Source: Saccharopolyspora thermophila
Lineage (GTDB): Bacteria; Actinomycetota; Actinomycetes; Mycobacteriales; Pseudonocardiaceae
Length of the DNA stretch: 64,000 nt
Reading direction: 5' to 3'
Assembly: GCF_014646075.1 (NCBI RefSeq)
Contig: NZ_BMMT01000001.1
Coordinates: 335,930-399,929, forward strand
Below are positions 1,321-20,543 of this stretch, one piece after another. Both the position numbers and the translations under genes were made by a program. Below the pieces are notes generated by a model. The model was not told the DNA's origin. It did no database searches and saw only the letters and a program-made list of their open reading frames with translations. Position 1 is the stretch's first letter. Every line of letters starts with the position of its first letter.

Positions 1321-1405
1321 TGCGGGCGCCTTCCTCGTGGTCGATCACGTCAGCCTGGTTCGACGATCCGCAACCTACATCGGGGATTCCACCGGAAAAG
1401 GCGAC

Positions 1406-3223: not shown

Positions 3224-3258
3224 CCCGTTTTTCGTCCACGGCAAGGAAAGAGGACAAC

Positions 3259-3540
3259 ATGGACGTTCGGCGAGAAGTCCATTCCGCGGTCGAGAACTTC
3301 CTGACCGACGTGTGCGGTGTCGATGGCGCGACGGTCACCGACACCACCCGGCTCTCCGACGTGGAGGTCGAGTCGCTGGAGCTCGTGGCCCTGGTGCAGG
3401 AGTTGCAGCGGCGCTTCGACATCGCGCTGACCGACGAGCGGCTGATGGGCGTGCAGACCGTCGGCGAGCTGGTCGACCTCGTCGCCCTGCGCCTCGACGA
3501 GCACGCCACGACCGCCGACCGAGTGTCCCTGGGGGAGTAG
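3259..3540 (+). CDS. Acyl carrier protein, DarC-like
   Basis: A 93-residue stand-alone ACP. Ser39 lies in the motif VESLELVAL, the expected 4'-phosphopantetheine site (DSLEL-type), followed by the usual helix-III region. Start ATG follows AAGGAAAGAGG. It ends in TAG immediately before the KASIII ATG, so the two are tightly coupled. Dialkylresorcinol clusters pair such an ACP (DarC) with DarB and DarA, and the same order is seen here. It probably carries one acyl or beta-ketoacyl substrate for the KASIII next door. No phosphopantetheinyl transferase gene is present in the window, so activation must come from elsewhere. Confidence 0.85.
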   Translation: MDVRREVHSAVENFLTDVCGVDGATVTDTTRLSDVEVESLELVALVQELQRRFDIALTDERLMGVQTVGELVDLVALRLDEHATTADRVSLGE

Positions 3541-4674
3541 ATGCCTGCCTACATCACCAGCACCGGCCGGTTCCTGCCCGGTGCGCCGGTGCCCAACGAG
3601 GAGATCGACGAGTACCTGGGCGCGGTCGGCCCGAACTCCGAGATCGTGCGCGACCAGACGTTGGCGAACAACGGGATCAAGACCCGCCACTACGCCATCG
3701 ACAAGCAGCAGCGGACGACCGTGTCGAACACGGAGATGGCGGTGTCGGCGATTCGGGAGGCGCTGCGCCGCGGCGAGGTCGGCGTCGACGAGATCGACCT
3801 GATCGCCGCCGGGACCACGATCGCCGACCTGCTCGCACCCGGGTTCGCCAGCATGATCCACGGCGCGCTGGACTGCCCGCCCTGCGAGGTGATCAGCGCC
3901 GGGGGCCTGTGCAACGCCGGGATGACCGCGCTGAAGGCCGCGCACCTGCAGATCACGGCGGGGGAGAAGCAAACCGCGGTGGTGGCCGCCTCCGAGTTCT
4001 CCTCGCGCGCCTTCAAAAGCCAGCGCTACCAGGGCGTGCGGCCCGCGGCCGAGGACGGCTCGATGGCGCTGGAGATGGCGTTCCTGCGGTACATGCTCTC
4101 CGACGGCGCCGGCGCTTTCGTGGTGCGGGACCGGCCCGCCGCGCGGGGCGTGAGCCTGCGCATCGACTGGATCAGCCTGACCTCCTACGCCAACACCGGC
4201 CCCACCTGCATGTACTTCGGCAGCGAGTCCGGCGGCACGGAGCGCACCTGGCTGGACCACGCCACCGACCAGGACGCGTCGGCCGCCGGTGCCCTGGTGA
4301 TGCGGCAGAACCTCGCGCTGCTGCCGCACCTGGTCAGGTGTGGGGTCGACGAGTACGAGCGGCTGCTGGCCGAGGGCCGCTTCGACCCGGACGAGATTCG
4401 CTGGTTCCCGGCGCACTACTCCAGCGAGAAGATGAAGGAGATGGTGCTCAAGCAGCTCCAGCGGCGCAAGGTGCACGGCCCGCCGCTGGAGTCCTGGTTC
4501 AGCAACCTGCAGCAGGTCGGCAACATCGGCAGCGCGGCGATCTTCGTGATCCTCGACGAGCTGGTGACCTCGGGGCTGGTGTCCGAAGGGGACAAACTGC
4601 TGTGCATGGTGCCGGAGTCGGGCCGGTTTTCCATCGCGTTCATGCACCTGACCGCGGTCGGGGCGGACGGATGA
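3541..4674 (+). CDS. KASIII-like ketosynthase of the dialkylresorcinol (DarB) type
   Basis: The 377-residue protein has a thiolase-fold KASIII with triad Cys124 (GGLCNAG), His292 (FPAHYSS) and Asn328 (VGNIGSA). Signature stretches NNGIKTRHYAI, FLRYMLSDGAGAF and VPESGRFS match my memory of DarB proteins rather than FabH. DarB enzymes join two fatty-acid-derived thioesters head to head to a 2,5-dialkylcyclohexane-1,3-dione. It directly follows the ACP and overlaps the DarA-like gene by 4 bp (ATGA). No thioesterase occurs in the operon, so this enzyme is the likely chain-releasing step. The alternative is a generic KASIII starter enzyme; neighbour identity argues against that. Confidence 0.85.
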   Translation: MPAYITSTGRFLPGAPVPNEEIDEYLGAVGPNSEIVRDQTLANNGIKTRHYAIDKQQRTTVSNTEMAVSAIREALRRGEVGVDEIDLIAAGTTIADLLAPGFASMIHGALDCPPCEVISAGGLCNAGMTALKAAHLQITAGEKQTAVVAASEFSSRAFKSQRYQGVRPAAEDGSMALEMAFLRYMLSDGAGAFVVRDRPAARGVSLRIDWISLTSYANTGPTCMYFGSESGGTERTWLDHATDQDASAAGALVMRQNLALLPHLVRCGVDEYERLLAEGRFDPDEIRWFPAHYSSEKMKEMVLKQLQRRKVHGPPLESWFSNLQQVGNIGSAAIFVILDELVTSGLVSEGDKLLCMVPESGRFSIAFMHLTAVGADG

Positions 4675-5591
4675 CCGCAGCACGCCCGCCACGGCTGCGG
4701 GTCTACTGGTACTCGCAGACCGGTCAGCTCACCGACGCCGTGGACGCCTTCGTCGCGCCGCTGGTCGAGGCGGGGTGGGAGATCCGGTGGAGCCAGGTGC
4801 GGCCGCGCACCGCGTTCCCCTTCCCGTGGTCGCTGCGGCGGTTCGTCGGCCTGGTGCCCGACGCCGTCCACCCAGAGTCCACTGTGGAGGTCGAGGTGGT
4901 CGGGGACGACGAGCCGGTGGACCTGGTGCTGTTCGCGTTCCAGGTGTGGTACCTCGCGCCGTCGATCCCGATGCGCTCGGTGCTGGCCGGTCCGCAGCGG
5001 TTCGCCGGGCAGCGCGTAATCGGGCTGACCGCGTGCCGGAACATGTGGTACTCGGCGGCCCTGGCGGTGAGCCGCCGGGTCACCGCCCGCGGTGCCCGCT
5101 ACCTCGGCACCGTCGCCGCCATCGACGACGCCCCGCCGCTGGCGACGTTCTTCACCACCATGCGGTGGTTGCTGACCGGCCGCCGGGATCCGTTCTGGTT
5201 CTTCCCGCGCGCGGGCGTGGGTCCCGCGCAGCTGGCGCGGGTGCGGGCGGTCGGCGAGAAGCTCGCCGCCACGGCGCGGCCGGGTGACGCGGACTTCGAC
5301 GACCGGGTGGTCCAGGCCCTCGCGGCCACCGACGCCGCCGCGGTCGATCCGGCCCTGGCCACGGCGGACCTGCTGGCCAGCCGGGTCTTCCGGGCGTGGG
5401 TCGCGGTGGCCCGCGCCGTACGTCCCGGCCTGCCGCGCAACCTGGTGCTCGCCGCGTTCGCCGCGTGGCTCGTGCCCACCGCCGCGCTCGGCCTGCCCGC
5501 GGTGGCCGTCGCGCGGAAGGCGGCTCGGCGGCGTTTCGACGCCGCTGTGCATCGCGCGCTCGCGCCGGCGGTCGCGGAGGTGCGGCGATGA
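4671..5591 (+). CDS. Flavodoxin-fold aromatase-like protein, DarA type
   Basis: A 306-residue protein starting with a flavodoxin-like strand and phosphate loop, YWYSQTGQL (residues 12-20), followed by a region rich in W and F and a hydrophobic, basic C-terminal tail (about 245-300) that could touch membrane. The SQTGQL loop and its place after a DarB-like KASIII match DarA, annotated as dialkylresorcinol condensing enzyme and shown in other bacteria to aromatise the cyclohexanedione to the resorcinol. The ATG overlaps the preceding stop, and its own stop overlaps the next start. Cofactor (FMN) use is inferred from fold only. Confidence 0.75.
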   Translation: MTAARPPRLRVYWYSQTGQLTDAVDAFVAPLVEAGWEIRWSQVRPRTAFPFPWSLRRFVGLVPDAVHPESTVEVEVVGDDEPVDLVLFAFQVWYLAPSIPMRSVLAGPQRFAGQRVIGLTACRNMWYSAALAVSRRVTARGARYLGTVAAIDDAPPLATFFTTMRWLLTGRRDPFWFFPRAGVGPAQLARVRAVGEKLAATARPGDADFDDRVVQALAATDAAAVDPALATADLLASRVFRAWVAVARAVRPGLPRNLVLAAFAAWLVPTAALGLPAVAVARKAARRRFDAAVHRALAPAVAEVRR

Positions 5592-7174
5592 CCCGCCGGG
5601 TGACCGCGCAGGTGGTCGTGGTCGGCGGCGGCCCGGTCGGGCTGGCCGCGGCGCACCTGCTCGCGCAACGAGGCGTGCGGACCGTCCTGGTCGAGCGCCG
5701 CCGGGAGCCCTCGCCGCACCCGCGGGCGACCATCGTCAACGTCCGCACCATGGAGGTGCTGCGCACGCTCGGCCTGGCCGACCGGGTGCGCGAGGCCGGG
5801 GTGCCGCCGCAGGAGGCGGGGCGGATCAGCTTCCGGACCGCGCTGGCCGGGACCGAGTTCGGCCACCTGGACGTGGTGGAGTCGGCCGAGAAGCTGATGC
5901 TGATGGCCGCGCAGAGCCCGGAGCTGCCGGGCATCTGCCCGCAGCACCGCATCGTGTCGATCCTGGCCGCTGCCCTCGCCGATCGCCCCACCGTCACAGC
6001 GCTGTTCGGCACCACCGCGACGGGCCTGTCGACCGGCGCGGCCGGCGTGGTGGTCGAGGCGACCGGAGCGGACGGGCCGTGCCGCATCGAGGCCGACTAC
6101 GCGCTGCTCGCCGAGGGCCTGCACGGTGAGCTGCGGGAGCAGGTCGGGATCGCGCCGGTGGCCGAGCCGCCGCTGGGGCGGTTGCTCGACGTGCACTTCC
6201 GGGCCGACCTGCGGCGGTGGACGCAGCACAACGGCAGCGCGCTCTACTGGATCGCCAACAGCGCGGTGCGGGGTGCGCTGATCACAGTGGACCCCGTCGG
6301 CGGCGAGTGGCTGCTCGAGGTGCCCGCATCCGGCCCGCACGACGAGCAGCGGCTGTTCGACCCCGGGCTGGACCACGCGGCCCTGGTCGGGTCCGCCGTG
6401 GGCGCGGACGTCGAGGTGGCCGTGCTCTCGGTTCGCTCGTGGCGGATGGGCAGCACCGGCGTCGACCGGTGGCGCGACGCCAGCGGGCGGGTGTTCGTCG
6501 CCGGGGACGCCGCGCACACCTTCCCCCCGACCGGCGGGTTCGGGATGAACACCGGCATCCAGGACGCGCACAACCTCGCGTGGAAGCTCGCCGGGGTGCT
6601 CCAGGGCTGGGCGCGCCCGGAACTGCTGGACAGCTACGAGACCGAGCGGCGCCCGGTGGCGGAGTTCAACGCCCGGCAGAGCGAGCACAACGCCCGGCAG
6701 ATCGAGGCACTGCTCACCGGGCTCCCACCGGGCGACGAGGTGCGGCAGCTGATCGAGCAGCAACGCCCGCACTTCGACTACCCGGGCCAGGCGCTGGGCT
6801 TCTGCTACCAGCGCGACCCGGTGGTGGCGGACGTGATGCGCCTCGACGACGCCGTCGCCGTCGGCGCCCGCATGCCGCACCGGTGGATCGACGACGCCCA
6901 CGAAGTGTCCACATGCGACATCGGGGTGAGCGGTTTCGCCGTGCTGGCCGACCAGCGCCACGCCGAGGCGTTCGCGGCCGCCTGCCAGGACGTCCCGCAC
7001 GTGCGGGCCGTCGCCTTCGACGACGCCGACCGGATGCTCGGACACCACGCGGCGGTGCTGGTCCGGCCGGACGGGCACGTCGCCGCCGAACTGCCCGGCG
7101 ACGATCCGGCGGCCGAGGTCGCCGCCGCCCTCGTCGTCGCCGGGGCCACCGCACACGAGGAGCAGCACGCATGA
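5588..7174 (+). CDS. FAD-dependent aromatic hydroxylase (PHBH/MhpA-type), first copy
   Basis: The 528-residue protein begins with the FAD dinucleotide motif GGGPVG (residues 13-18), has the second FAD-contact motif GDAAHTFPPTGGFGMNTGIQD near 300-320 and a C-terminal thioredoxin-like domain as in phenol hydroxylases and MhpA/PgaE enzymes. These use NADPH, O2 and FAD to hydroxylate an activated aromatic ring, usually ortho to a phenol. A resorcinol made by the DarB/DarA pair would be a fitting substrate (inference). Four-base overlaps on both sides tie it to the operon. Related enzymes can also carry out epoxidation or Baeyer-Villiger chemistry. Confidence 0.9.
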   Translation: MTRRVTAQVVVVGGGPVGLAAAHLLAQRGVRTVLVERRREPSPHPRATIVNVRTMEVLRTLGLADRVREAGVPPQEAGRISFRTALAGTEFGHLDVVESAEKLMLMAAQSPELPGICPQHRIVSILAAALADRPTVTALFGTTATGLSTGAAGVVVEATGADGPCRIEADYALLAEGLHGELREQVGIAPVAEPPLGRLLDVHFRADLRRWTQHNGSALYWIANSAVRGALITVDPVGGEWLLEVPASGPHDEQRLFDPGLDHAALVGSAVGADVEVAVLSVRSWRMGSTGVDRWRDASGRVFVAGDAAHTFPPTGGFGMNTGIQDAHNLAWKLAGVLQGWARPELLDSYETERRPVAEFNARQSEHNARQIEALLTGLPPGDEVRQLIEQQRPHFDYPGQALGFCYQRDPVVADVMRLDDAVAVGARMPHRWIDDAHEVSTCDIGVSGFAVLADQRHAEAFAAACQDVPHVRAVAFDDADRMLGHHAAVLVRPDGHVAAELPGDDPAAEVAAALVVAGATAHEEQHA

Positions 7175-7647
7175 CCGAACACCGGACCCTCACCGAGGCC
7201 GAGCTGTCCGCCCTGACCACCGCGGACCGCGCCGCGTTGCGCGCGGCCGTCGACGGCGTGCCGCGCCGGGAGCTGACCGCGCTGCTGGCCACCGACACCG
7301 GCGGCAAGGCGCTGCGCGCGGCGTTCGAGCGGATGCCGGAGTTCCACACCGGGCGAGCGGTGGACGCGCCGGTCGTCGTCCGCTGGCGGGTGCGCCGCGA
7401 ACCGGCCGAGACGATCGAGTACGACCTGTCCCTGGCGGGCAGTTCGTGCGCGGTGCGCCCGGCGCGGGAGGACACCCAGCCCACGGTCACGTTGAGCATG
7501 GACGCGGTCAGCTTCCTGGAGATGGCCTCCGGCCTGCGCAGCGGGATGAGCCTGCTGATGCGGGGTCGCCTGCGGATCAAGGGCGACGTCGGCCTCGCCA
7601 CCCGGCTGGAGTCGCTGTTCGGTCTCGACGACGCGAGCGCGCGATGA
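7171..7647 (+). CDS. SCP2 sterol-carrier-like lipid-binding protein
   Basis: A 158-residue protein with a SCP2-domain pattern in its C-terminal two-thirds (PTVTLSMDAVSFLEMASGL followed by GRLRIKGDVGLATRLESLF), where a hydrophobic tunnel binds acyl lipids. It has no obvious catalytic residues and no signal peptide, so it is likely cytosolic. Position between two overlapping genes suggests a carrier or chaperone that presents a long-chain hydrophobic intermediate to the oxygenases. That role is inferred; the family assignment rests on the characteristic G-x-L-x-I-x-G-D motif. Confidence 0.8.
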   Translation: MTEHRTLTEAELSALTTADRAALRAAVDGVPRRELTALLATDTGGKALRAAFERMPEFHTGRAVDAPVVVRWRVRREPAETIEYDLSLAGSSCAVRPAREDTQPTVTLSMDAVSFLEMASGLRSGMSLLMRGRLRIKGDVGLATRLESLFGLDDASAR

Positions 7648-8861
7648 CCCGCGTGGTGGTCACCGGGATCGGGTTGGTCACCCCGGTCGGCATCGGCACC
7701 GACGCGACCTGGGACGCCCTGGTCGGCGGGGTGTCCGGGGCGGGGCCGATCACCACGTTCGACGCGTCCCGGCACGACGTGCGGATCGCCGCGGAGGTGA
7801 CCGGGTTCGACCCGTTGGACTTCTGCCGCCGGCACGAGGCCCGCCGGGCGGACCGCTTCTGCCAGTTCGCGCAGGCCGCGGCGGCGATGGCGCTGGACGG
7901 CGCGGTCTTCGCCGACCGCAGCGAGGTGGCCACGGTGGTGGGCAGCGCGATCGGCGGGGCGGCGACGATCATCGACGGGGTCCGCACCGAACGCCCGGCC
8001 ATGGTGTCGCCGTTCTTCGTGCCGTCCTCGATCGTCAACATGGCGGCCGGCACGATCGCCCGGCTGCACGGTTTCGGCGGTCCGTCCGCGGCCCCGGCCA
8101 CCGCCTGCGCGGCGGGCGCGGATGCCGTCGCGCACGCCTTCCGGCTCATCCGCGACGGGTACGCGACCGCGGCGGTGGCCGGTGGCGCCGAGGCGTGCAT
8201 CGTCGGGCCGCTCATCGCCGGGTTCGGTAACATGCGCGCGCTCTCGCGGCGCAACGACGATCCGCAGCGGGCTTCCCGGCCGTTCGACGCCGAGCGCGAC
8301 GGGTTCGTGATGGGCGAGGGCGCGGGGATGCTGCTGCTGGAGTCGCTGGCGGCGGCCGAGGCCCGGGGCGCGCACGTGTTCGCCGAGATCGTTGGGTGCG
8401 GCCACACCAACGACGCGCACAGCCCCACCCGGCCGGCACCGGACGGCGCGCCCGCGGCGCGGGCGATGCGGCTGGCCCTGCGCGACGCCGGACTCGATCC
8501 CTCCGCCGTGGACTACGTCAACGCGCACGGCACCTCCACCAGGGCGTCCGACGCGATGGAAACCGCCGCGCTCAAACGGGTCTTCGGCGAGCACAGCACG
8601 CGGATCGCGGTCAGCTCGACGAAATCCACGACCGGGCACCTGCTCGGCGCGACCGGCGGGGTCGAGGCCGCCGTCTGCGCGCTGGCCATCGACCGTGGCC
8701 AGCTGCCGCCGACGATCAACCAGGAGATGCCCGACCCGGAGTGCGACCTCGACTACGTGCCGAACAAGGCGCGCGCAGCCGACGTGAACGTAGCCCTGTC
8801 CAACTCGTTCGCGTTCGGCGGCCACAACACGTCGCTGGTTTTCCGCAGATTCGAGGGGTGA
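7644..8861 (+). CDS. FabF-like ketosynthase (KASII)
   Basis: A 405-residue condensing enzyme with Cys155 (TACAAG), His295 (NAHGTST) and His332 (TTGHLLGATG), the intact Cys-His-His set, so it should decarboxylate malonyl-ACP and elongate acyl chains. It begins MTRVVVTGIG as FabF proteins do. It is separate from the KS of the megasynthase, so the operon carries three ketosynthase types (KASIII, KASII, PUFA-type KS). It might provide the beta-ketoacyl-ACP partner for the DarB-like enzyme. ATG overlaps the SCP2 stop by 4 bp. Confidence 0.93.
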   Translation: MTRVVVTGIGLVTPVGIGTDATWDALVGGVSGAGPITTFDASRHDVRIAAEVTGFDPLDFCRRHEARRADRFCQFAQAAAAMALDGAVFADRSEVATVVGSAIGGAATIIDGVRTERPAMVSPFFVPSSIVNMAAGTIARLHGFGGPSAAPATACAAGADAVAHAFRLIRDGYATAAVAGGAEACIVGPLIAGFGNMRALSRRNDDPQRASRPFDAERDGFVMGEGAGMLLLESLAAAEARGAHVFAEIVGCGHTNDAHSPTRPAPDGAPAARAMRLALRDAGLDPSAVDYVNAHGTSTRASDAMETAALKRVFGEHSTRIAVSSTKSTTGHLLGATGGVEAAVCALAIDRGQLPPTINQEMPDPECDLDYVPNKARAADVNVALSNSFAFGGHNTSLVFRRFEG

Positions 8862-8864
8862 GCA

Positions 8865-10499
8865 ATGGCCGAGCAGACCCGGGTTCTCGTCGTCGGGGCG
8901 GGGCCGACCGGACTGGCCGTGGCCTGCGAGCTGCTGCGCGCGGGCGTGCCGGTGCGGGTGGTGGAGGCGGGCACCGAGCGGTCGCCGCGCTCCAAGGGGA
9001 TCGCGATCTGGCCGCGGACCCTGGAGATCCTGCACGACCTCGGTATCGCCGAGGAGGCCACCGCACGCGGCCTGCCGCTGCGCAAGGGCACACTGTGGTC
9101 CCAGGGGCAGCCACTGACCACCTTCGACCTGACCGACCTGCGCTCCCGCTTCGGCTGGGGCCTGGTCCTGCCGCAGTACGAGACCGAGTCGCTGCTGGAG
9201 CGGCGGCTGGTCGAGCTCGGCGGCAAGGTCGAAAAGGGCGTCCGCTGCGCCGAACTCAGCTGGTCGGCCTCCGGCCTGCCGCGGGTGGCGCTGGTCAGCT
9301 CGGCCGGGACCGAGCAGGCCGAGGTGGACTGGCTGATCGCCTGCGACGGCCCGGGCAGCACGATCCGCGCGGCGGCCGGCATCGACATGGCCGGTGAACT
9401 GGAGCGCTACGGCTGGGTGCTGGCCGACGTGCGGATGGACACCGAGCTGCCGCGGGACGGCGTCAACTGGTTCCTGCACCGCGACGCGGTGCTGCACGCG
9501 CTACCGATGCCCGGCGACCAGTGGCGGCTGACCATGACCGTCGGCCGGGAGCGGCCGGACCCCGCGCAGTGGCCGGTGGAGCGCATCCAGCGGATTCTCG
9601 ACGAGCGCAGCCCGGTCCCGATGCGGTTGTCCACCGCGGAGTGGGTCAGCGGGTTCCGGGTCCGGCAGGGCATCGCCCGGCAGTTCCGGCGCGGCCGGGT
9701 GCTGCTGGCCGGGGACGCCGCGCACGTGCACAGCCCGGCCGGGGCGCAGGGCGTCAACGCTGGGCTGCAGGACGCGGCGAACCTCGGGTGGAAGCTGGCC
9801 CTGGTGTGCCGGGGCGACGCGTCACCGACCCTGCTGGATTCCTACGACGCCGAGCGGCGACCGGCCGCGTCACTGACGGTCCGGCTGGCCAACCGCGCGA
9901 CCAGGGGCGCGACCCTGGCCAGCGCCGCCGCCCGCGCCGGACGCGACCTGATCTGGTCGACCGCGGGCCGCCGAGGTGTGGTGCAGCGTGTGGTGCCGCC
10001 CGCGGTGAGCGGTGTGCTGCAGAGCTATCCCGCCGGGCTCACCGCGGCTTCCGGGCCGCTGCTGGCCGCCCGCCGCCTGCGCTCCGTGGTGGACCTGGTG
10101 CGCGGGCGTCCGGGTACGGGCGCGCGGCTGCCCGACGTGCGGCTGGTCGACGGGTGGCTGTGGGACCTGCTGCCCGCCACCGGCCCGGTGGTACTGGCCT
10201 GGGCCGGGCGCGGCCGCGCATGGGACGACGTCGACGGGTTCACCGCGCTGCACCGCGCCGTGCCCCGCGACGTCCCGGTGCTCGTCTTCGACTCGCCCGG
10301 CGCGCCCGCGGACGCGATCCCCGACTCGCCGCGGTGGCGCGTGGTGGCCGACTTCGGCGGCCGGGTGCGGCGGGCGCTCGCCGCGGGCCCGGACACCGCC
10401 GTCGTCGTCCGCCCCGACCGGTACCTGGGCGCGCGTGGTTCGAGCGCCTCACCCGGTGCCGTCCGCAGCTACTTCAAGACCGTGGGAGGAACCCCCTGA
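8865..10499 (+). CDS. FAD-dependent aromatic hydroxylase (PHBH/MhpA-type), second copy
   Basis: The 544-residue protein has GAGPTG (residues 11-16), a conserved mid-domain DGPGSTIR (DG motif) near 164-171 and GDAAHVHSPAGAQGVNAGLQD near 285-305, then a C-terminal thioredoxin-like domain. This is the complete three-motif set of class A flavoprotein hydroxylases. It is clearly diverged from the first copy (it keeps the DG motif more clearly), so the two probably act at different steps, for example successive hydroxylations or an oxidative rearrangement. Separated from the ketosynthase by 3 bp, and its stop overlaps the cupin start (TGATG). Confidence 0.9.
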   Translation: MAEQTRVLVVGAGPTGLAVACELLRAGVPVRVVEAGTERSPRSKGIAIWPRTLEILHDLGIAEEATARGLPLRKGTLWSQGQPLTTFDLTDLRSRFGWGLVLPQYETESLLERRLVELGGKVEKGVRCAELSWSASGLPRVALVSSAGTEQAEVDWLIACDGPGSTIRAAAGIDMAGELERYGWVLADVRMDTELPRDGVNWFLHRDAVLHALPMPGDQWRLTMTVGRERPDPAQWPVERIQRILDERSPVPMRLSTAEWVSGFRVRQGIARQFRRGRVLLAGDAAHVHSPAGAQGVNAGLQDAANLGWKLALVCRGDASPTLLDSYDAERRPAASLTVRLANRATRGATLASAAARAGRDLIWSTAGRRGVVQRVVPPAVSGVLQSYPAGLTAASGPLLAARRLRSVVDLVRGRPGTGARLPDVRLVDGWLWDLLPATGPVVLAWAGRGRAWDDVDGFTALHRAVPRDVPVLVFDSPGAPADAIPDSPRWRVVADFGGRVRRALAAGPDTAVVVRPDRYLGARGSSASPGAVRSYFKTVGGTP

Positions 10500-11083
10500 T
10501 GCTCGACGTCGGCGAGGTCATCGAGAACACCCAGTCCGGAGAGCGCGTCAAGATCCGCACCGGTCGGCTGGACACCAACGGGGAGCTGGTCGAGGGCGAC
10601 TTTCTGCTCCGGGCGGGCGGCGCGGTCGCCGCCACGCATATCCACCCGCACCAGACCGAGACCTTCGAGGTCCTCGAAGGCGAGGTGCTGATCCAGATCG
10701 GATCCGAGGAGATCCTGGCCCGGCCCGGCAAGCGCTACGTGGCCCCGCCGGGCGTGCCGCACCGGATGATCAACCACGGCTCCACCGACGCCAGGCTGAT
10801 CAGCGGCGCGTACCCGGCGCTGCGCATGGACGAGCTGCTGGAGACGCTGTGGGGCCTGGCCACCGACGGCCGGACGAACCGGTGGGGCCACCCCAGCCCG
10901 CTGCGCGCGGCGGCGATCGCCGCGGAGTTCCGCGACGAGTTCCGGCTCACCTGGCCGCAGTGGCTGCAGGACGCGGTGTTCCGCCCGCTGCTGCCGCTCG
11001 CCCGCGCCCTGTCCTACCCGGGCACCTACGTGCCCGTCGACCGCCGTCGGCTGCGCCCCGCGTCGGCCCCGAGGAGGCGATGA
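10499..11083 (+). CDS. Cupin-domain protein
   Basis: A 194-residue protein whose first half is a cupin barrel: HIHPHQTETFEVLEGEV supplies His, His and Glu of motif 1, and PPGVPHRMINH supplies the His of motif 2, so a metal site is intact. The C-terminal 80 residues are helical and hydrophobic. Cupins in biosynthetic operons act as dioxygenases, isomerases, cyclases or binding proteins; here ring oxidation or cleavage would fit but cannot be read from sequence. The ATG overlaps the preceding stop, with GGGAGG just upstream. Confidence 0.85.
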   Translation: MLDVGEVIENTQSGERVKIRTGRLDTNGELVEGDFLLRAGGAVAATHIHPHQTETFEVLEGEVLIQIGSEEILARPGKRYVAPPGVPHRMINHGSTDARLISGAYPALRMDELLETLWGLATDGRTNRWGHPSPLRAAAIAAEFRDEFRLTWPQWLQDAVFRPLLPLARALSYPGTYVPVDRRRLRPASAPRRR

Positions 11084-12504: not shown

Positions 12505-12575
12505 CCCGCGAGTTGACCCGAGCCGCTCCCACGACCCACGCAGAACCATCCGCGATCTCTGGAGAAGGTGCGCAG

Positions 12576-13997
12576 ATGTCACAGCAGGAGACCGTGTTCC
12601 TCTTCCCCGGCCAGGGCGGCTACGACGGCCGCGCGCTCGCGCTCGCCCGCGAGCGGTATCCGCAGGTCGGGGAGGTTTTCGCGGAACTCGACGAGGTGGC
12701 CGCCGAGCTGTTCGGGCGGCCGGTGAGCGAGGTCCTGGACGCCGAAACCGACCTCGCCCGACTGCTGCACCACGACCCGTGGGTGTCGCAGTTCGCGATC
12801 TACGGCGCCGCGGTCGCGGCGGGCCGGGTGCTGCTGGAGCGCGGCGTGCGCCCCGACGTGCTCGTCGGGCACAGCCTCGGCGAGATCGCCGCACTGGTCA
12901 CCGCGGGCGTGTTCGGGGTGGCCGACGGCGCGCGGATCGTCGCGCACCGGGTGCGGGTGATCGAGGAACTGGGCGTCGAACCCGGCCGGATGGTCGCGTT
13001 GGGCGCCGACGAGCAGCGCGCCCAGCACCTCGTCGAGCTGCTCGCCGACGACCAGGTGGCCGTCGCCGCGCACAACCACCCGACGCAAACCGTCCTCAGT
13101 GGACCGCAGCGGTCCGTCGGCCGGGTGCTGGGCATCGCCCGGCTGCTGGAGATCGGTGCGGTGGAGCTGAACTCACCGTTCGCCTTCCACAGCCCGCTGC
13201 TGCAGCCCGCGGTGTCCGCGCTGGCCGCGCGGATCGGCGAACTGCACGCCACAGATCCGCGCATCCCGGTGTACTCGCCGATCCAGCAGGATTACTACCG
13301 TCCCGGACAGGACGTCGCCGCGCTCATCGCCCAGCACCTCGTGCGGCCGGTGCGCTTCGCGGCGGCTGTTGCGCACCTGCGCGAGGCGGGCGCGCACCGG
13401 TTCGTCGAGGTCGGTGGCGCAACGGCGCTGGCCCAGCTGGTCCGCAGGAACGTCGACCACGACGACGTGTCCACCTGGTCCACGCTGGCCCTCGACCGCA
13501 CCGGTGGCCTGGCCCTGGACGCCACCCTGGCGGCCCTGGCCGGACCCGCCCCGGCAGACCCGGAGGCCGTGGCCCGGCTGGGTGAGGTGCTCGCGCCCGG
13601 CACCAGCGCGGAGGTGTTCGCCGAGTTCTGGGCGGCGGCCGGGGAGCGGATCGCGGCCTCGGTGCGCGCCGAGCTCGCCGAGTTCACCGCGGGCCGCGAC
13701 GCGACTCCGGCGCCCCCGGCGCAGCCGGTGGTCATCGACAAGGACGTCCTCGCCAAGGAGCTGCGCGCCCAGTACGCGGCCGCGCTGGAGTACCCGGAGG
13801 AGGTCTTCGGCGACGACGTGCGGCTGGAGGCCGAACTCGGCATCGACTCGGTCAAGCAGGTGGAGCTGGTCTCCCGCGCGTTCCAGCGGTACGGCCTGCC
13901 CGAACGCGAGGGCGGCATCCGGATCAGCGAGTACGACACCATCGCGAAGGTCGTCGAGCTGGTCCACAGCGCCCTGCGCGAACAGGCCGCCCGGTAG
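12576..13997 (+). CDS. Acyltransferase-ACP didomain protein, PUFA-synthase-like
   Basis: The 473-residue protein is an FabD-type acyltransferase (GHSLGE with Ser100, His205 in an AFHSPLL stretch, which favours malonyl over methylmalonyl) joined by an Ala/Pro linker to an ACP whose Ser425 lies in GIDSVKQVEL, the form typical of polyunsaturated-fatty-acid-synthase and enediyne carrier domains. It should load malonyl units onto its own ACP and serve the megasynthase that follows, which has neither AT nor ACP. GGAGAAGG at 12561-12568 supports the ATG. The 71-bp gap to the P450 contains no clear terminator. Confidence 0.9.
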   Translation: MSQQETVFLFPGQGGYDGRALALARERYPQVGEVFAELDEVAAELFGRPVSEVLDAETDLARLLHHDPWVSQFAIYGAAVAAGRVLLERGVRPDVLVGHSLGEIAALVTAGVFGVADGARIVAHRVRVIEELGVEPGRMVALGADEQRAQHLVELLADDQVAVAAHNHPTQTVLSGPQRSVGRVLGIARLLEIGAVELNSPFAFHSPLLQPAVSALAARIGELHATDPRIPVYSPIQQDYYRPGQDVAALIAQHLVRPVRFAAAVAHLREAGAHRFVEVGGATALAQLVRRNVDHDDVSTWSTLALDRTGGLALDATLAALAGPAPADPEAVARLGEVLAPGTSAEVFAEFWAAAGERIAASVRAELAEFTAGRDATPAPPAQPVVIDKDVLAKELRAQYAAALEYPEEVFGDDVRLEAELGIDSVKQVELVSRAFQRYGLPEREGGIRISEYDTIAKVVELVHSALREQAAR

Positions 13998-14075
13998 GGG
14001 CGCGGCACCGCGGATGTCGCCCGCACCGGACGGCATCCGCCTGGCACCGCTTCCACGAGCACGAGGGATTTCGTG

Positions 14076-17000
14076 ATGGGACAGCTGGAGAACAAGCTCG
14101 CGCTGGTCACCGGCGGCGGGAAGAACGTCGGTGCGGCCATCGCCCGGGAACTGGGCCGGCGCGGCGCGCACGTGATCATCAACTACTTCCACTCGCCCGA
14201 GCGGGCCAGGCGGACCGCGGAGGAACTGCGCGACCTCGGCGTGCGGGTCGACCTGATCCGCGCCTCGGTGGCCCGCCAGGACCAGGTGGACCGGATGTTC
14301 GCCGAGCTCGAGGAGCGGTTCGGATACCTGGACATCCTGGTCAACAACGCGGCCAACGGGGCGCTGCTGCCGCTCGCGGAGATCACCGACGAGCACCTCG
14401 ACAAGGCCGTCGACACCAACTACAAGGGGGGCCTGCGGTGCGCCCGCGCGGCCGCCCCGCTCATGGCCCGCCGCGGCGGAGGTTCCATCGTCACCATCTC
14501 CGCCCTGGGCTCCTCGCAGCTGGTGATGAACGGCTACCTCGCCTGCGCCCCGGCCAAGGCCGCCGCCGAGGCGGTGACCCGCTACCTCGCGGTGGAGTTC
14601 GCGCCGCTGAACATCCGGGTCAACACCGCGTCCGCGGCGATGCTGCGCGGCGAGGTCGCCGACGCCTTCCCACGGGCCGCCGAGATGCAGGAGGTCATCC
14701 GGCGGTCCACCCCGCTGGGCAGACTCGGTGAACCGGAGGACCTGGCCGCCGTGGTGGCGTTTTTGGCCTCGGACGACGCCCGCTGGGTGACCGGCCAGGT
14801 GGTGCTCGCCGACGGCGGTCTCTCCCTCGGCGCCAGCCTGCTGTCCCCACCCCCGCAGACGGAATCGGCCACGACCACCCCCGAAGACGCGGCGAGTACG
14901 GCGGAATCGCGGGACCGCGAGCGGGGCGCCGCAAGCGCCGCCGTCGCCGTCGTCGAGGCAGCGCCGGGACCCGCGGTCGTGACCGAACGGCGTGACGAGG
15001 CGCCGACCGACGACATCGCCATCGTCGGCATGGGCCTGGCCGTGGCCGGCGCGAACAGCCCGGAGGAGTTCTGGGAGCTGCGCACCACCGGCGCGGAGCT
15101 GTTCGTCCGGCCGCCCGAGGACCGCTGGGAGCGGGACAGTTTCTACTCGCCGGACCCGGCCGCGGAGGACAAGACCTACCAGGACCGGTTCGCGTTCATC
15201 ACCGGGTTCCAACCCGACCCCGGCTCGGCGCTGCCGGGCGAGCCGGAGCTCACCACGGCGTGGCTGCGGCACTCGCTGGCGCAGGCGCTGCGCCCGGTGC
15301 ACCTGGGTGCCGACGACCGGGTGTCGTTCCTGGTCGGCTACACCCCGGACGGCAGCCAGCACCTGGAGGACGCCGGGGTGCTGGCCTCGGCCCGGCAACG
15401 GGTGCCGCGGCTGCTGGACGACATGGGCGTGCCCGCGCACCGCCGCGCCGAACTGCTGTCCGCTGTGGACGCCGTGCTTCTCGACCGCTACCGGCGCGGG
15501 GCCCGCGACCCCCACCTGCTGCTGCCGGACCGGGTGGCCCGGCAGGCCATGGCGGGCCTGCTGCCCGCGGACACCGAGATCCAGCTGGTCGACACGGCCT
15601 GCTCGTCGTCGATGTACGCCATCGACATCGGGGTGCGCAGCCTGCTGCTCGGCGAGCACGACGTGGCGGTGTGCGGCGGCGCGTTCGCGCTGACCCCGCG
15701 CGCCATGGTGATGTTCGCGAAGCTGCGCGGCCTGTCCCGCCGTGGCGAGGTGCGGGCCATGGACGACTCCGCGGACGGCGTGCTGTTCGCCGACGGCGCG
15801 GGCATCGTCGTGCTCAAGCGGTTGGACCGCGCGCGCCGCGACGGCGACCGGGTGCTGGCCGTGCTCGGCTCGGTCGGCACCTCCTCCGACGGCAGCGGCA
15901 CCGCGATCTACGCGCCCAACCCGGACGGGCAGGACCTCGCCGTGCGACGCGCGCTGACCGGCCCGGTGTCCGGCGACGACGTCGACTGGGTGCTGGCGCA
16001 CGCCACCGGCACCCCGGCCGGTGACCTGGCCGAGTTCACCACCATCCGCAAGCACTTCCACGCCGACCGGACCCAGTACCTGACCTCGAACAAGTCGCTG
16101 ATCGGGCACACCGGCTGGGCGGCCGGCGTGGCGTCGGTGGTGGAGGCGGTGCTGGCCCTGCAGCGGGACACCATCCCGGCGCAGTTCCGGCTGACCAGCC
16201 CGCAGCGCGACTTCCGGATCGACGAGACGAAGCTGGAGATCCCCGCCGAGCCGGTGCCGTGGCCGCCGCGCGCCGACCGGCCGCGGGCCGTCGGGGTGTC
16301 CGGTTTCGGCTTCGGCGGCACCAACGCGCACCTCGTGGTGCGGGAGGCGTCCGCGGGTGGCGCGGCCCCGCGCCGCCGGAGAGACGACCGGGTCGTCATC
16401 GTGGGCTGGTCCGCGCGCCTGCCCGGCCTGTCCTCACGCGACCAGGTCACCCGCTGGCTCACCGGCGCGGGCGACGCCCCGCAGGACGGCTTCGGCGACC
16501 AGTACCCGGCGCCGCCCTTCGAGCAGGTCCGGCTGCCGCCGAAGACGGTCCGGATGATGGACCGCTGCCAGCTGATGATGGTGTGGTGCGCGCAGGAGCT
16601 GCGCGATGAGATCCCGGAGTTCTGGCAGCGCAACACCGAGAGCACCGGGGTCTTCGTGGGCAACATGGGGCCCACGCGGATGGGCATGCTGCTGGGCGAC
16701 CGCGTCTACCTGGACCAGGTGAGCACGGCGCTGCGCACCGACCCGCGCACCGCCGAGCTGCCCGAACTGCCCGAGCTGGTGGAGCGGCTGCGCGCCGACG
16801 TGCGCTCGCGCGTGGAACCGTCCAATGAGGACTCGTTCCCGGGCATGATGCCGAACATCATCTCGGCGCGGGTCGCCAGCCGGTTCGATCTGACCGGGCC
16901 GAACGTGACGCTGGACTCCGGGCTGAGCTCCGCGCTGACCGCGATCGAGACGGCCGCCCGCTACCTGCGGACCGGTGACGTGCGCCTCGCGCTGGCCGCG

Positions 17001-19877
17001 GGCGTCAACGGCAACAGTCTACCCGAGTTCGCGGCCCTGCTCGGCGACTCGCTCGGCGCGGGCCCCGCCGCGGGTGCGGGACTCGCCGAGGGTGCCTTCG
17101 CGTTCGCCCTGACCACGGAGCGGACCGCCGTCGAGGAAGGGCTGCCGATCCTGGCGTACGTCAACGGCCTGTCCACAGTCGACGACGGCGGTCCGGCCGG
17201 GCGCGAGGTCGTCGAGTGCGGCGTGGCCGCACCGGACGTGGCCCGCTACGTCGGGGCCGCCGGCGGGCTGGGCGTGCTGCGGGCCCTGCACGGCGGGGCA
17301 GGCGAGATCGGCGTGCGCTGCACGGGCCCGGACGGGGTGGCCGACGTGGAACTGGCCCTCACCGTCCCGGCGGCCGAGCCCGCCCGGCTGCCCGCCCGGT
17401 TCCGGGACGCCGAGCAGTTCGCGCCCGGGCAACGACCGCTGGTCCGCCGCCACGTGCCCGCGCTGCGCCCCGCCCCCGCGGTCGAGGTCGGGGAGCGCAC
17501 CCCGTTCCTGCCGCCAGGCGTGGTCGTGCTGACCGACCTGACCGACCTCGGCGGACTCCCCCTGCCGCCGGACGCCACCGTGCTGTGCACCGCGGCCGGC
17601 GCTCCGCCGGACTGGATCCACCTGCCCCAGCCCACACCCGAGACAGTGCGGGAGGCGTTACGCGGGGACGTCCGCCACGTGCGGATCGTCACCGACCTGG
17701 CGCGCACCAGCCCGCTCACCGACCCGGACAACCCACCGGCGGACTCGTTGATCGCCCTGCACGACGCGTTCTTTCTCGCCGTCCAGCACACCTCGCCGGA
17801 GTCGGTGCTGGTGCTGCTGGCAGGCGGCATCGCGGACGGCGTGCCGCACCCGATGACCGGGCTGTTCACCGGTCTGCTCAAGGCGGTCGACCTGGAACTG
17901 CCGGACTGCCGGACGTTCGCGCTGGTCACCGGCACGAGCGAGCTGACCGACGCGGCGCGGCTGGCGGAGCGGGAGAGCGCCTGCCGCCGGCCGTTTCCGA
18001 TCGTCTACGCCGAGGGCGGCACCACGTCGGTGCCGGTGCTCGCCGAGGAACCCGTCGAGGTCATCGACGCGCCCGCGCGCCTGGGCCCCGACTCGGTGGT
18101 GCTCGCCGTCGGCGGGGCCCGCGGCATCACCGCCGAGATCGTCAAGGTGCTCGCAGCCGAGTTCCGGCCCCGGGTCTATTTGTTCGGCAGCAACCGGCTC
18201 GACGACTACCCGGACGAGGTGTTCGCCGGGGATGACGCGTCCTTCGCGGCCGGTCGCCGCGACTTCATCCGGCGGGGCGTGGCAGAGGGGAAGTCGGTGG
18301 CGCAGCTGAACCGGGAGTACGACCGCATGCGGCATGCCCGGGCCGCCCGGCGCACCATCGCCGAGCTGGAACGCCACTGCGGGCCTGGCCGCGTCACGTA
18401 CCTGGCCTGCGACGTCGCCGACGCCGAGGCCACCACCACGGCGGTGCGGAAGGTCCTGGCCGAGGTCGACCGGGTGGACCTGCTGATCAACGCCGCCGGG
18501 CGCAACCACTCCGCGTTGATCGGCGACAAGGACTTCGCGTCGTTCACCGCGATCCGCGACATCAAACTCCGCGGGTACCGCAACCTCAAGCGGGCCTTCG
18601 GCGCCGACCAGCCGGAGGTGTGGTGCAACTTCGGTTCGCTGCTGGGCTACTTCGGCCAGCGCGGCGAGGCCGACTACGCCGCCGGCAACGACTTTCTGGC
18701 CTCGGCCGCGGTGCACGCCGCCTCGCGGGGGCGTCGGGAGTTCACCATCGGCTGGACCTTCTGGGACGGCGTCGGGATGGTCGGCGAGGGCGGCGGCCTG
18801 GCCAACACGCACTTCAAGAAGGTCGGCTCCTACAGCGACATGTCGGTCGCCGAGGGCGTGCACCACTTCGTGCGCGAGCTGCACGCCGACCGGGTCGCCC
18901 CCTCGACCGTCCACATGGGACAGGCGGAGCGGCGCATGGTCGAGGGGCTGTACCCGGGCTACCTCGACGCCTGCGCCGAGCAGGCCCCGCGCGGCCGGTT
19001 CTACCTGCGGCGGCTGCTGGCGCAGACCGCCGACTCGGTGACCTTCGAGACGCCGTTCGACCTGGAGACCGACAGCTACCTGCGGTACCACCCGGTGCGG
19101 GGGGTGCCGACGCTGCCCGGCGCGTTCGTCGCCGAACTGGCCGCCGAGGCGGCGCTGCACCTGGTGCCCGGCGGCACCGTCATTGGCTTCGACGACACGT
19201 GCTTCAACAACTTCCTGCACGTCTACCTCGAACTGCCGACACCCCCGAAGCGGATCGCCGCGCGGATCGCCGACCGCAGCGGCGGCATCACCGTGGTGGA
19301 CGTCCGGATCACCACCGACGTGCTGTCGCCGACAGGGATCAAGCTCGTCACGGACCGGGCCCACTTCACCTCCCGGGTGCTGGTCGCGGACGGCTACCGG
19401 CCGCCCCGCCGGTGGCAGCCGTGGCCCGACCCGGAGGTCGACGTCCCGGCGGAGGAGTCGTTCCGCGCCGAGGGCGCCCCGATCCTGCTGAGCGGGCCGT
19501 TTTTGTGCGTCGACGACATCCGCCGGTCGGACGGCCGGGCGCGGGCGACGTACCGGTTCCGGCAGCCGCCGCAGGATCCGCTGGCCGCCGCGTTCGTCGC
19601 TCCTCCGTTCCTGCTGGACGCCATGGTCCGGGTCGGGTTCCTCACCGACGCCGACGGGCGCGACGCACCGGTGTCCGCGCCCACCCGCATCGACCGGGTG
19701 GAGCTGTACGAGGACGGCAACGACTGGGAGCTGATGCGGCGCTACGGGCACCTCGGGCTGTATGCGGAGGTGGCCGGCAGCGGCCCCGATCGGGTGCATC
19801 ACCTGATCGCCACCGCGCCGGACGGCCACGTGGTCGCCTGGGCGCGCGGCGTGCACACCGCCGTCGTCAACTGGTGA
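14076..19877 (+). CDS. Iterative megasynthase: FabL-type ER - KS - CLF-like KS - KR - DH
   Basis: 1933 residues. Residues 1-250 are an SDR closest to enoyl-ACP reductase FabL, with Tyr154-X6-Lys161 instead of FabG's YxxxK. After a linker, about 310-780 is a PfaA/PfaC-like ketosynthase with Cys509 (DTACSS), His642 and His678 intact. About 785-1130 is a second KS fold where the Cys is replaced by Leu950 (DSGLSS), as in chain-length factors. About 1340-1640 is a PUFA-type KR with Tyr1534 (YAAGN). The C-terminal 250 residues are a hot-dog dehydratase with His1672 in HPVRGVPTLP. It lacks AT, ACP and release domains, supplied in trans by the preceding gene and the DarB-like enzyme. The full KR-DH-ER set predicts reduced or partly unsaturated acyl chains. 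One TTA codon lies at 17658. ATG 14076 fits GAGGGA; GTG at 14073 is possible. Confidence 0.9.
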   Translation: MGQLENKLALVTGGGKNVGAAIARELGRRGAHVIINYFHSPERARRTAEELRDLGVRVDLIRASVARQDQVDRMFAELEERFGYLDILVNNAANGALLPLAEITDEHLDKAVDTNYKGGLRCARAAAPLMARRGGGSIVTISALGSSQLVMNGYLACAPAKAAAEAVTRYLAVEFAPLNIRVNTASAAMLRGEVADAFPRAAEMQEVIRRSTPLGRLGEPEDLAAVVAFLASDDARWVTGQVVLADGGLSLGASLLSPPPQTESATTTPEDAASTAESRDRERGAASAAVAVVEAAPGPAVVTERRDEAPTDDIAIVGMGLAVAGANSPEEFWELRTTGAELFVRPPEDRWERDSFYSPDPAAEDKTYQDRFAFITGFQPDPGSALPGEPELTTAWLRHSLAQALRPVHLGADDRVSFLVGYTPDGSQHLEDAGVLASARQRVPRLLDDMGVPAHRRAELLSAVDAVLLDRYRRGARDPHLLLPDRVARQAMAGLLPADTEIQLVDTACSSSMYAIDIGVRSLLLGEHDVAVCGGAFALTPRAMVMFAKLRGLSRRGEVRAMDDSADGVLFADGAGIVVLKRLDRARRDGDRVLAVLGSVGTSSDGSGTAIYAPNPDGQDLAVRRALTGPVSGDDVDWVLAHATGTPAGDLAEFTTIRKHFHADRTQYLTSNKSLIGHTGWAAGVASVVEAVLALQRDTIPAQFRLTSPQRDFRIDETKLEIPAEPVPWPPRADRPRAVGVSGFGFGGTNAHLVVREASAGGAAPRRRRDDRVVIVGWSARLPGLSSRDQVTRWLTGAGDAPQDGFGDQYPAPPFEQVRLPPKTVRMMDRCQLMMVWCAQELRDEIPEFWQRNTESTGVFVGNMGPTRMGMLLGDRVYLDQVSTALRTDPRTAELPELPELVERLRADVRSRVEPSNEDSFPGMMPNIISARVASRFDLTGPNVTLDSGLSSALTAIETAARYLRTGDVRLALAAGVNGNSLPEFAALLGDSLGAGPAAGAGLAEGAFAFALTTERTAVEEGLPILAYVNGLSTVDDGGPAGREVVECGVAAPDVARYVGAAGGLGVLRALHGGAGEIGVRCTGPDGVADVELALTVPAAEPARLPARFRDAEQFAPGQRPLVRRHVPALRPAPAVEVGERTPFLPPGVVVLTDLTDLGGLPLPPDATVLCTAAGAPPDWIHLPQPTPETVREALRGDVRHVRIVTDLARTSPLTDPDNPPADSLIALHDAFFLAVQHTSPESVLVLLAGGIADGVPHPMTGLFTGLLKAVDLELPDCRTFALVTGTSELTDAARLAERESACRRPFPIVYAEGGTTSVPVLAEEPVEVIDAPARLGPDSVVLAVGGARGITAEIVKVLAAEFRPRVYLFGSNRLDDYPDEVFAGDDASFAAGRRDFIRRGVAEGKSVAQLNREYDRMRHARAARRTIAELERHCGPGRVTYLACDVADAEATTTAVRKVLAEVDRVDLLINAAGRNHSALIGDKDFASFTAIRDIKLRGYRNLKRAFGADQPEVWCNFGSLLGYFGQRGEADYAAGNDFLASAAVHAASRGRREFTIGWTFWDGVGMVGEGGGLANTHFKKVGSYSDMSVAEGVHHFVRELHADRVAPSTVHMGQAERRMVEGLYPGYLDACAEQAPRGRFYLRRLLAQTADSVTFETPFDLETDSYLRYHPVRGVPTLPGAFVAELAAEAALHLVPGGTVIGFDDTCFNNFLHVYLELPTPPKRIAARIADRSGGITVVDVRITTDVLSPTGIKLVTDRAHFTSRVLVADGYRPPRRWQPWPDPEVDVPAEESFRAEGAPILLSGPFLCVDDIRRSDGRARATYRFRQPPQDPLAAAFVAPPFLLDAMVRVGFLTDADGRDAPVSAPTRIDRVELYEDGNDWELMRRYGHLGLYAEVAGSGPDRVHHLIATAPDGHVVAWARGVHTAVVNW

Positions 19878-19881
19878 TGGC

Positions 19882-19959
19882 CGCCGGGAGGCCACCGCGC
19901 CTCCCGGCGCCCGGCCGAAAAAGCGCCGGGCGAACGGTCGGTGACCGTCCGCCCGGCGC
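19882..19959. terminator. Double hairpin terminator between convergent genes
   Basis: Two GC-rich hairpins lie between the megasynthase stop and the clpP stop. The first pairs CGCCGGGAGG (19882-19891) with CCTCCCGGCG (19900-19909). The second pairs GCGCCGGGCG (19923-19932) plus ACGGTC with GACCGT plus CGCCCGGCGC (19950-19959), with one mismatch. They can end transcription from both sides. Confidence 0.75.
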
Positions 19960-19973
19960 CGGAAGAAGAATGG

Positions 19974-20543
19974 TCAGCGCTGGTTCGGTGTAATAACCGA
20001 ATCGACGAGTCCGTAGTCACGTGCCTCGGTCGCGGTGAACCAGCGGTCGCGGTCGAAATCCCGCATGATGGTCTCGACGGAATTGCCTGACTGCGCCGCC
20101 GTCAATTCCGCGATCTGCCGCTTTGTCTGGCTGAACATCTCCGCCTGGATCCGGGTGTCGGACGCCGTCCCGCCGATTCCCGCGGAGGGCTGGTGCATCA
20201 TGATCCGGGCGTGCTCCAGCGCGTACCGCTTGCCCGGGGCGCCCGCGGTCAGCAGCACCTGCCCCATCGAGGCGGCCAGCCCGAAGGCGTAGGTCTGCAC
20301 GTCGCAGCTGATGAGCTGCATCGTGTCGTAGATGGCAAACCCGGCGGTGACCGAACCGCCCGGCGAGTTGATGTAGAGCTTGATGTCCTCGTCCGGGTCC
20401 TCGGCCTGCAGCAGGAGCAGCTGCGCGCAGATCCGGTTGGCGACGTCGTCGTTGACCTCGGAACCAAGAACGATGATCCGCGTCTTGAGCAGGCTCTGGA
20501 AAAGGGAGTCGGTCAGATTGCTGAGGTTGCTGAGATCGCTCAT
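19974..20543 (-). CDS. clpP: ClpP-type serine protease subunit, lone copy at the cluster edge
   Basis: A 189-residue ClpP with catalytic Ser92 (AASMG), His117 (MMHQPS) and Asp162 (RDFDRDRW) all present, plus the INSPGGSVTAG oxyanion region, so it should be an active peptidase subunit needing a Clp ATPase. Actinobacterial clpP genes normally come in pairs beside clpX; this one has neither partner nor chaperone and stands opposite a biosynthetic operon. Extra clpP copies are known as self-resistance genes in clusters for ClpP inhibitors. That role here is inference; a general stress-induced ClpP3-like paralogue is the alternative. ATG 20543 gives the usual length; a TTG 39 bp upstream is also open but has no RBS. 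Confidence 0.92.
   Translation of the reverse strand: MSDLSNLSNLTDSLFQSLLKTRIIVLGSEVNDDVANRICAQLLLLQAEDPDEDIKLYINSPGGSVTAGFAIYDTMQLISCDVQTYAFGLAASMGQVLLTAGAPGKRYALEHARIMMHQPSAGIGGTASDTRIQAEMFSQTKRQIAELTAAQSGNSVETIMRDFDRDRWFTATEARDYGLVDSVITPNQR

Follow-up and report, generated by a model that had tools for sequence, protein, structure and literature searches.

A predicted dialkylresorcinol-type gene cluster with a ring hydroxylase and an adjoining extra ClpP gene in Saccharopolyspora thermophila

Results

A cluster built around coupled DarB-like and DarA-like genes

In a 64,000-nucleotide stretch of the Saccharopolyspora thermophila genome (contig NZ_BMMT01000001.1; hereafter referred to as the window), we identified a gene cluster that spans approximately positions 916–20543, from a SnoaL-like gene to a ClpP gene. 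Dialkylresorcinol (DAR)-type ring formation is the best reading of this cluster, and we think it probable, with some reservation, that the genes specify a specialised metabolite in which acyl chains are joined, the ring is hydroxylated and oxidised further, and the product is possibly directed against ClpP.

Twelve + strand genes lie within 1766–19877, from a Baeyer-Villiger-type monooxygenase gene through a synthase gene. The initial annotation, drawn from the sequence alone, had described a DarC-DarB-DarA series that shares its operon with the genes of FabF, an acyltransferase-acyl carrier protein (AT-ACP) and a megasynthase, and all of these proved to be present. The region given there, 3259–19877, was too narrow as the full extent of the cluster, and that account mentioned neither the conserved genes for ring hydroxylation nor the Baeyer-Villiger-type monooxygenase nor the additional ClpP copy. 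The genes of interest encode, in this order, a DarC-like acyl carrier protein (ACP; 3259–3540; PF00550, E 3.3e-12), a DarB-like ketosynthase predicted to form the ring (3541–4674), a DarA-like protein proposed to be an aromatase (4671–5591), the aromatic-ring hydroxylase FAD2 (5588–7174), an SCP2-like lipid-binding protein (7171–7647; PF02036, E 8.7e-13) and a FabF-type ketosynthase (7644–8861). The ACP and DarB genes abut, and four-base ATGA overlaps are present at the DarB-DarA, DarA-FAD2, FAD2-SCP2 and SCP2-FabF junctions, so that the genes from ACP to FabF look translationally coupled. The DarB-DarA pair is not a chance arrangement, because it recurs in other genera, mostly with an ACP gene upstream.

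Relationships of the DarB-like and DarA-like proteins

The DarB-like protein matched the NCBIfam model of the StlD/DarB family, NF005293, with an E value of 5.1e-112 (374.6 bits; cut-off 450) and NF053539 with 332.1 bits (cut-off 550), whereas FabH models gave only 75–83 bits (best E 2e-23). A sequence comparison with the PDB likewise placed the stilbene ketosynthase StlD (5gk0) at the top (E 3e-74), the best FabH having an E value of 2.5e-10. The motifs GLCNAG, AHYSS and GNIGSAA, with their Cys, His and Asn residues, are present and aligned to those of StlD. In trees, the StlD/DarB sequences, including that of the window, were separated from two KASIII proteins of the same genome (99/99), and the actinobacterial DarBs having DarA neighbours formed a single group (100/99); the root is weak, as the branches of the FabH outgroup are saturated. 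The DarB of a Streptomyces diastatochromogenes locus (L049) was excluded from the trees although its frame is open. The proposed DarB assignment is thus upheld at the level of the family. Because the scores miss the curated NCBIfam cut-offs, however, we regard the window protein as a divergent relative of StlD/DarB and not as a certified DarB.

The DarA-like protein of the window had no Pfam or NCBIfam match at an E value of 0.01. NCBIfam also returned nothing for the DarA-like proteins of Actinosynnema, of one Streptomyces plasmid and of locus L051, and only a weak flavodoxin match, below the cut-off (E 1.5e-4), for that of locus L050; the library therefore seems to be without a DarA model. 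L050 is a flexirubin locus from Bacteroidales, in which the ammonia-lyase passes the FlxA threshold (839 bits; cut-off 700) and the DarB passes its own (583.9 bits; cut-off 550). By our reading, the genes behind DarA-DarB in L051 resemble the Azoarcus darD-darE-darF order. In Azoarcus, DarB is labelled a DAR-cyclase and DarA a DAR-aromatase (PMC3949708). The window DarA has 25–32% identity, or 25–27% when counted over the alignment, with the DarA-like proteins encoded at two Bacteroidales loci. An alignment of the window protein with 20 relatives, these two included (A3, 21 sequences), has 27 invariant columns, among them Q-x-GQL of the YSQTGQL loop and the motif ACRNMWY, whose invariance is partly built in, since it served as a search pattern. 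The L049 copy, with its several frame breaks, was excluded from A3. PDB sequence searches with DarA gave no significant match, and a profile search brought up 2mwm (E 0.43) and the putative flavoprotein 4ici (E 0.75). The initial naming of the protein as DarA thus finds support in its resemblance to the Bacteroidales proteins and in its constant partnership with DarB described below.

Distant DarA-like matches in a Mycobacterium-type genus (L008–L014) were set aside, with 23–27% identity and no DarB within 1.5 kb. The two neighbourhoods read (L021, DarA-like gene at 6151–6846; L023, at 6981–7658) look like mycobacterial clusters of polyketide synthase (PKS) and acyltransferase genes, and the DarA-like genes there adjoin small genes that by reading resemble SRPBCC and nitroreductase genes.

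Recurrence of the core in three architectures

Scanning genome contigs for DarA yielded 21 further loci, 19 actinobacterial and two from Bacteroidales. A search for the gene order in other genomes had been suggested initially. In all 21 loci the DarB and DarA matches were no more than 0.6 kb apart, the two genes being divergent in three Nocardia loci. Of the 19 actinobacterial loci, 16 had an ACP called immediately before DarB; in L040, L043 and L048 none was called.

The actinobacterial loci have three architectures. In the first (10/19), FAD2, SCP2 and FabF genes follow DarA, as in the window; it occurs in Actinosynnema, Streptomyces, Streptacidiphilus, Paractinoplanes, Dactylosporangium and Nocardia. 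The recurring core is thus DarB-DarA-aromatic hydroxylase-SCP2-FabF. A plasmid search with DarA references found only three Streptomyces records, and both plasmid loci read (L053 and L054) have the first architecture, in the order ACP-DarB-DarA-FAD2-SCP2-FabF-P450-ACP-FabG-F420 oxidoreductase, with multicopper oxidase and phosphopantetheinyl transferase genes nearby; two of the plasmid records list DarA as 'hypothetical protein'. In the second architecture (6/19; L036, L037, L038, L040, L043 and L048, four of them Mycolicibacterium), an ACP and a ketosynthase (KS)-AT PKS gene stand behind DarA, and in several of these loci, genes for an FAD monooxygenase or resembling methyltransferase genes lie close by. 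The third, a divergent DarA with PKS genes, was found in three Nocardia loci. In L049, the frames of DarA, FAD2 and FabF are broken, perhaps because the assembly is raw.

The window FabF scored above the cut-off of its model (TIGR03150, 530.5 bits; cut-off 493.75). FabF is present in all loci of the first architecture, and the Cys-His-His residues are kept in 12 of 12 rows (the window and 11 others, with L049 excluded).

Within the order, full-length DarA is rare (3 of 397 genomes, namely the window genome, G172 and G052), and a match of any kind was found in 12 of the 397. When 396 genomes from across the phylum were searched for DarB, five had a match; the window genome and G052 have an adjoining DarA, and the three others showed no DarA in 19 kb. 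StlD/DarB relatives without a DarA neighbour were located at L029 (9107–10261), L030 (8858–10066), L031 (9614–10777) and L055 (11992–13092). In L029–L031 the gene is followed by two conserved genes of similar size, and in L055 the adjacent genes are annotated as iron-containing redox enzyme and hypothetical protein. Three Bacteroidales plasmids (L056, L057 and L058) carry an StlD/DarB-family gene directly behind a TetR/AcrR or helix-turn-helix gene, with no DarA homologue seen. No publication on this cluster type was among the matches listed, judged by titles and the opening lines of abstracts, in a search that left most subscription journals outside, and term searches in PMC4578411 and PMC13291983 gave nothing on DarB in actinobacteria.

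Probable ring hydroxylation and predicted tailoring oxidases

FAD2 combines an FAD-binding domain (PF01494, E 8.8e-80) with a C-terminal Rng_hyd_C domain (PF21274, E 3e-10). In the three Nocardia loci L041 (9956–11254), L044 (9953–11242) and L045 (10001–11257), DarA is fused in one open frame to an FAD2-type C-terminal domain, and no FAD2 was found in the fetched stretches of these loci. The fused domains best matched FAD2 proteins of other Nocardia (E 1e-17, 1e-18 and 1e-22), and matched the window FAD2 weakly (E 4e-5, 0.006 and 2e-5); Pfam recognised one of the three, as PF21274, just below the cut-off (E 1e-5). Because the core includes an aromatic hydroxylase and because DarA is joined to its C-terminal domain in these Nocardia, the ring is probably hydroxylated. 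The only NCBIfam match of the SCP2 protein was UbiT, below the cut-off (E 0.007). The placement of SCP2 beside a flavin hydroxylase recalls UbiJ, a protein that binds hydrophobic intermediates of ubiquinone synthesis, where flavin monooxygenases also act (PMC6747719).

The core is followed by genes for a second FAD monooxygenase, FAD3 (8865–10499; PF01494, E 1e-70), a cupin protein (10499–11083; PF07883, E 9.9e-16) and a cytochrome P450 (11080–12504; PF00067, E 4.5e-74), and preceded by that of the FAD monooxygenase (FMO) at 1766–3223 (PF13738/PF00743), for which the start was inferred. The FMO contains FTGSVFHSADWD, which we take to be a Baeyer-Villiger signature. Its nearest NCBIfam model is PtlE (215.7 bits; cut-off 1100), and homologues of 64% and 48% identity are present in the Actinosynnema locus (L032) and in the Dactylosporangium locus (L095), respectively.

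The iterative synthase as an accessory of one branch

Two genes, preceded by gaps of 71 and 75 bases, respectively, complete the + strand series: an AT-ACP didomain gene (12576–13997; PF00698 and PF00550, with GHSLGE and GIDSV motifs) and an iterative synthase gene (14073–19877). The Pfam domains of the latter are a short-chain dehydrogenase/reductase (SDR), a KS, a chain-length factor (CLF), a ketoreductase (KR) and a dehydratase (DH). The SDR has a Y-x6-K motif and FabL as its best equivalog, below the cut-off; the KS has DTACSS and the CLF following it DSGLSS, with Leu replacing the nucleophilic Cys; and the DH keeps HxxxGxxxxP. The synthase had been described as being of the polyunsaturated fatty acid (PUFA) type. 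The succession of a KS and a Cys-less CLF agrees with this description, but the protein fails the PfaA model (TIGR02813, 317 bits; cut-off 1010), and the system has a single ACP motif and no PfaD-type enoyl reductase (ER), so we rejected the label of PUFA synthase.

Among the loci read, a synthase of this kind accompanies Dar genes only in the window and in Actinosynnema, where it stands in the same position, after the P450, and in the same order. As just one of the 19 related actinobacterial loci has it, the synthase is an accessory of one branch and not part of the core of the cluster family. The idea of a dedicated chain supply is thus supported in part: the KS-CLF-KR-DH synthase, the AT-ACP and the FabL-like domain are all present in the window, but as a defining trait of the family we rejected it. 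When 14 of the 19 genomes were searched whole, similar matches elsewhere were one more copy in Actinosynnema (L070, 9303–15217) and a split match in Nocardia wallacei (L071, 8556–12145); both are AT-ACP and KS-CLF synthases without Dar genes, and the latter has a fused SDR like that of the window. A dedicated fatty acid synthase (FAS)/PKS feeding a resorcinol-forming enzyme has a precedent in Azotobacter phenolic lipids, where that enzyme is a type III PKS (PMC3098273).

An extra ClpP gene at three related clusters

The genome has a tandem clpP pair elsewhere and a third, unpaired copy at the end of the cluster (19974–20543, - strand; PF00574, E 1.6e-73), which we propose as a self-resistance copy. 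It is separated from the synthase gene by a convergent intergenic stretch (19878–19973) with strong hairpins, a probable two-way terminator; the fold of 19875–19975 is far stronger than those of shuffled sequences (z-score -5.3).

The clusters of the window, Actinosynnema and Dactylosporangium are the only ones that combine FAD3, a full-length cupin match, P450 and FMO (the cupin match in L033 covers 77 residues only). In Actinosynnema an unpaired ClpP (L069) lies 2.85 kb downstream of the synthase, and in Dactylosporangium one lies 2.6 kb past the cluster P450, before the FMO homologue. We searched 16 of the 19 genomes for ClpP (all except those of L043, L048 and L049). Unpaired ClpP was present at 3/3 clusters of this subtype versus 0/14 others within the stretches read (Fisher p 0.0015, the groups having been named post hoc); these stretches extended about 10 kb to each side of the other Dar loci, in some cases less, and the Dactylosporangium ClpP lies just past that distance. 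None of the fourteen other-type genomes has a ClpP within its fetched locus, and only G780 and G788 list an unpaired one, in G780 on another, longer contig than the Dar locus and in G788 outside L046, which covers nearly the whole contig.

We considered a single ancestral cluster ClpP and rejected it: the tree keeps the three copies apart (approximately unbiased test, p-AU 0.0007; L091, a duplicate of the L069 ClpP, excluded). They therefore look like separate duplications, although the long branches call for caution. As an antibacterial target, ClpP is much sought after; co-located extra copies of a target are known markers of self-resistance, and clipibicyclene clusters bear clpP. As such copies mark self-resistance, the cluster product may inhibit ClpP, with the extra ClpP as a resistant copy. 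Extra clpP genes have also been used to find ClpP-directed clusters, metaze being an example (PMC13386464).

Flanking genes

On the other side of the cluster, a SnoaL-like protein is encoded divergently from the operon (916–1320, - strand; PF12680, E 2.9e-17); the gene is found at the corresponding place in Actinosynnema (L032), where its product is 55% identical over 127 amino acids. Just beyond ClpP lies a gene for L-lysine 6-transaminase (20925–22292; TIGR03251, over the cut-off), which is probably unrelated. The genes from 20925 onward look like housekeeping genes, the domain scan covering the first one only.

Discussion

DarB enzymes join a 3-oxoacyl chain to a 2-enoyl chain. In the pathway that we infer for the cluster, with its reactions, product and target all predicted from gene content, the AT-ACP and the SDR-KS-CLF-KR-DH synthase would build a fatty chain and could pass on a 2-enoyl-ACP, and FabF would make the 3-oxoacyl-ACP for DarB. 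DarB would join the two to give a 2,5-dialkylcyclohexane-1,3-dione, which DarA would aromatise to a resorcinol. SCP2 would bind the lipophilic intermediate during ring hydroxylation by FAD2, in a UbiJ-like manner, and further oxidation by FAD3, the P450, the cupin and the Baeyer-Villiger-type enzyme might lead to a lactone or a quinone. ClpP may be the target of this product, the extra gene then supplying a resistant copy. The new type of ring proposed in the initial annotation likewise counts as a prediction. Tentatively, we extend this picture: a family of actinobacterial clusters would convert dialkylresorcinols, made in this branch with a fatty acid synthase of their own, to electrophilic lipids in a highly oxidised state that block ClpP, and three lineages would each have recruited a duplicate of their own ClpP as a resistant target.

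The cluster shares ACP, DarB and DarA with the darABC and flexirubin clusters of Pseudomonas chlororaphis, Chitinophaga and Azoarcus; production of 2-hexyl-5-propyl resorcinol is lost in darA and darB mutants (PMC6403133), and heterologous expression of Chitinophaga darB and darA yielded a DAR (PMC3992019). Unlike these, it has the DarC-DarB-DarA order, a coupled ring hydroxylase, SCP2, FabF and its own synthase, and it also carries the P450, the cupin, the Baeyer-Villiger-type enzyme and ClpP. StlD is of the same family as the window DarB, with the catalytic motifs kept, but the cluster proteins include no ammonia-lyase and have a fatty-chain synthase instead. The likeness to the Azotobacter system (type P, PMC3098273) lies in a dedicated FAS/PKS chain for a resorcinol-forming enzyme, although no chalcone/stilbene-synthase domain occurs among the cluster proteins. 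With Pfa and secondary lipid synthases the window shares KS-CLF, AT, ACP, KR and DH; it differs from Pfa in its single ACP motif, its SDR-type reductase and the lack of a PfaD-type ER. The metaze and clipibicyclene clusters also have an extra clpP co-located with biosynthetic genes, but these genes are different, and for the window both product and resistance are predicted only.

Several observations weigh against our reading, and they bear on three other explanations. DarB falls under both NCBIfam cut-offs and DarA lies outside every curated family, and StlD/DarB relatives with no DarA homologue next to them exist in Pseudoalteromonas and in three genomes that belong to a different family of the class, so that DarB alone need not mean a resorcinol. 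The two enzymes might then act on other substrates to give a cyclohexanedione, a pyrone or another ring that is never aromatised, on which the flavin enzymes would act. We consider this distinctly unlikely, given that DarA stands beside DarB at all 21 loci and that an aromatic-ring hydroxylase domain is fused to DarA in the three Nocardia loci. It is also unlikely, if somewhat less so, that a lipid unconnected with the ring is the product of the synthase and AT-ACP, which would then only share the locus with the Dar genes. Such a separation would fit the similar synthases that Nocardia wallacei and the same Actinosynnema genome carry away from their Dar genes, the absence of the synthase from 18 of the 19 related loci and the gaps before the two genes; that the Actinosynnema synthase has no fused reductase domain is a further difficulty for our reading. 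On the other side, all these genes are on the same strand, and the synthase follows the P450 in the same position and order in the window and Actinosynnema.

The alternative that we take most seriously, while still finding it somewhat doubtful, is an ordinary dialkylresorcinol pathway with tailoring, in which the ClpP gene is an unrelated neighbour. The core pair matches DAR clusters, and the window ClpP is convergent and outside the operon. Unpaired ClpP is common, with an odd number of ClpP matches in 20 of 60 family genomes, that of the window included, and Dactylosporangium has another unpaired ClpP far from its cluster. A shared resistance signature in the three cluster ClpPs had to be rejected: four alignment columns differ in all three, but this count is matched by 46 of 1140 other triples. 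Against a chance neighbour stand the 3/3 versus 0/14 distribution, within the limits given above, and the Dactylosporangium ClpP, which sits between cluster genes and the FMO homologue.

Should the tentative extension above hold, with highly oxidised lipids acting on ClpP, these would represent a chemically novel class of ClpP inhibitors. The loci described here extend DarA/DarB chemistry to recurrent actinobacterial clusters in which a hydroxylase and a lipid carrier would be linked to the ring, and they give actinobacterial DarA an annotation handle. One subtype yields a direct, testable prediction that ClpP is the target of an uncharacterised product, and a target copy that appears to have been recruited separately in three lineages would be a better lead than one co-located gene on its own.

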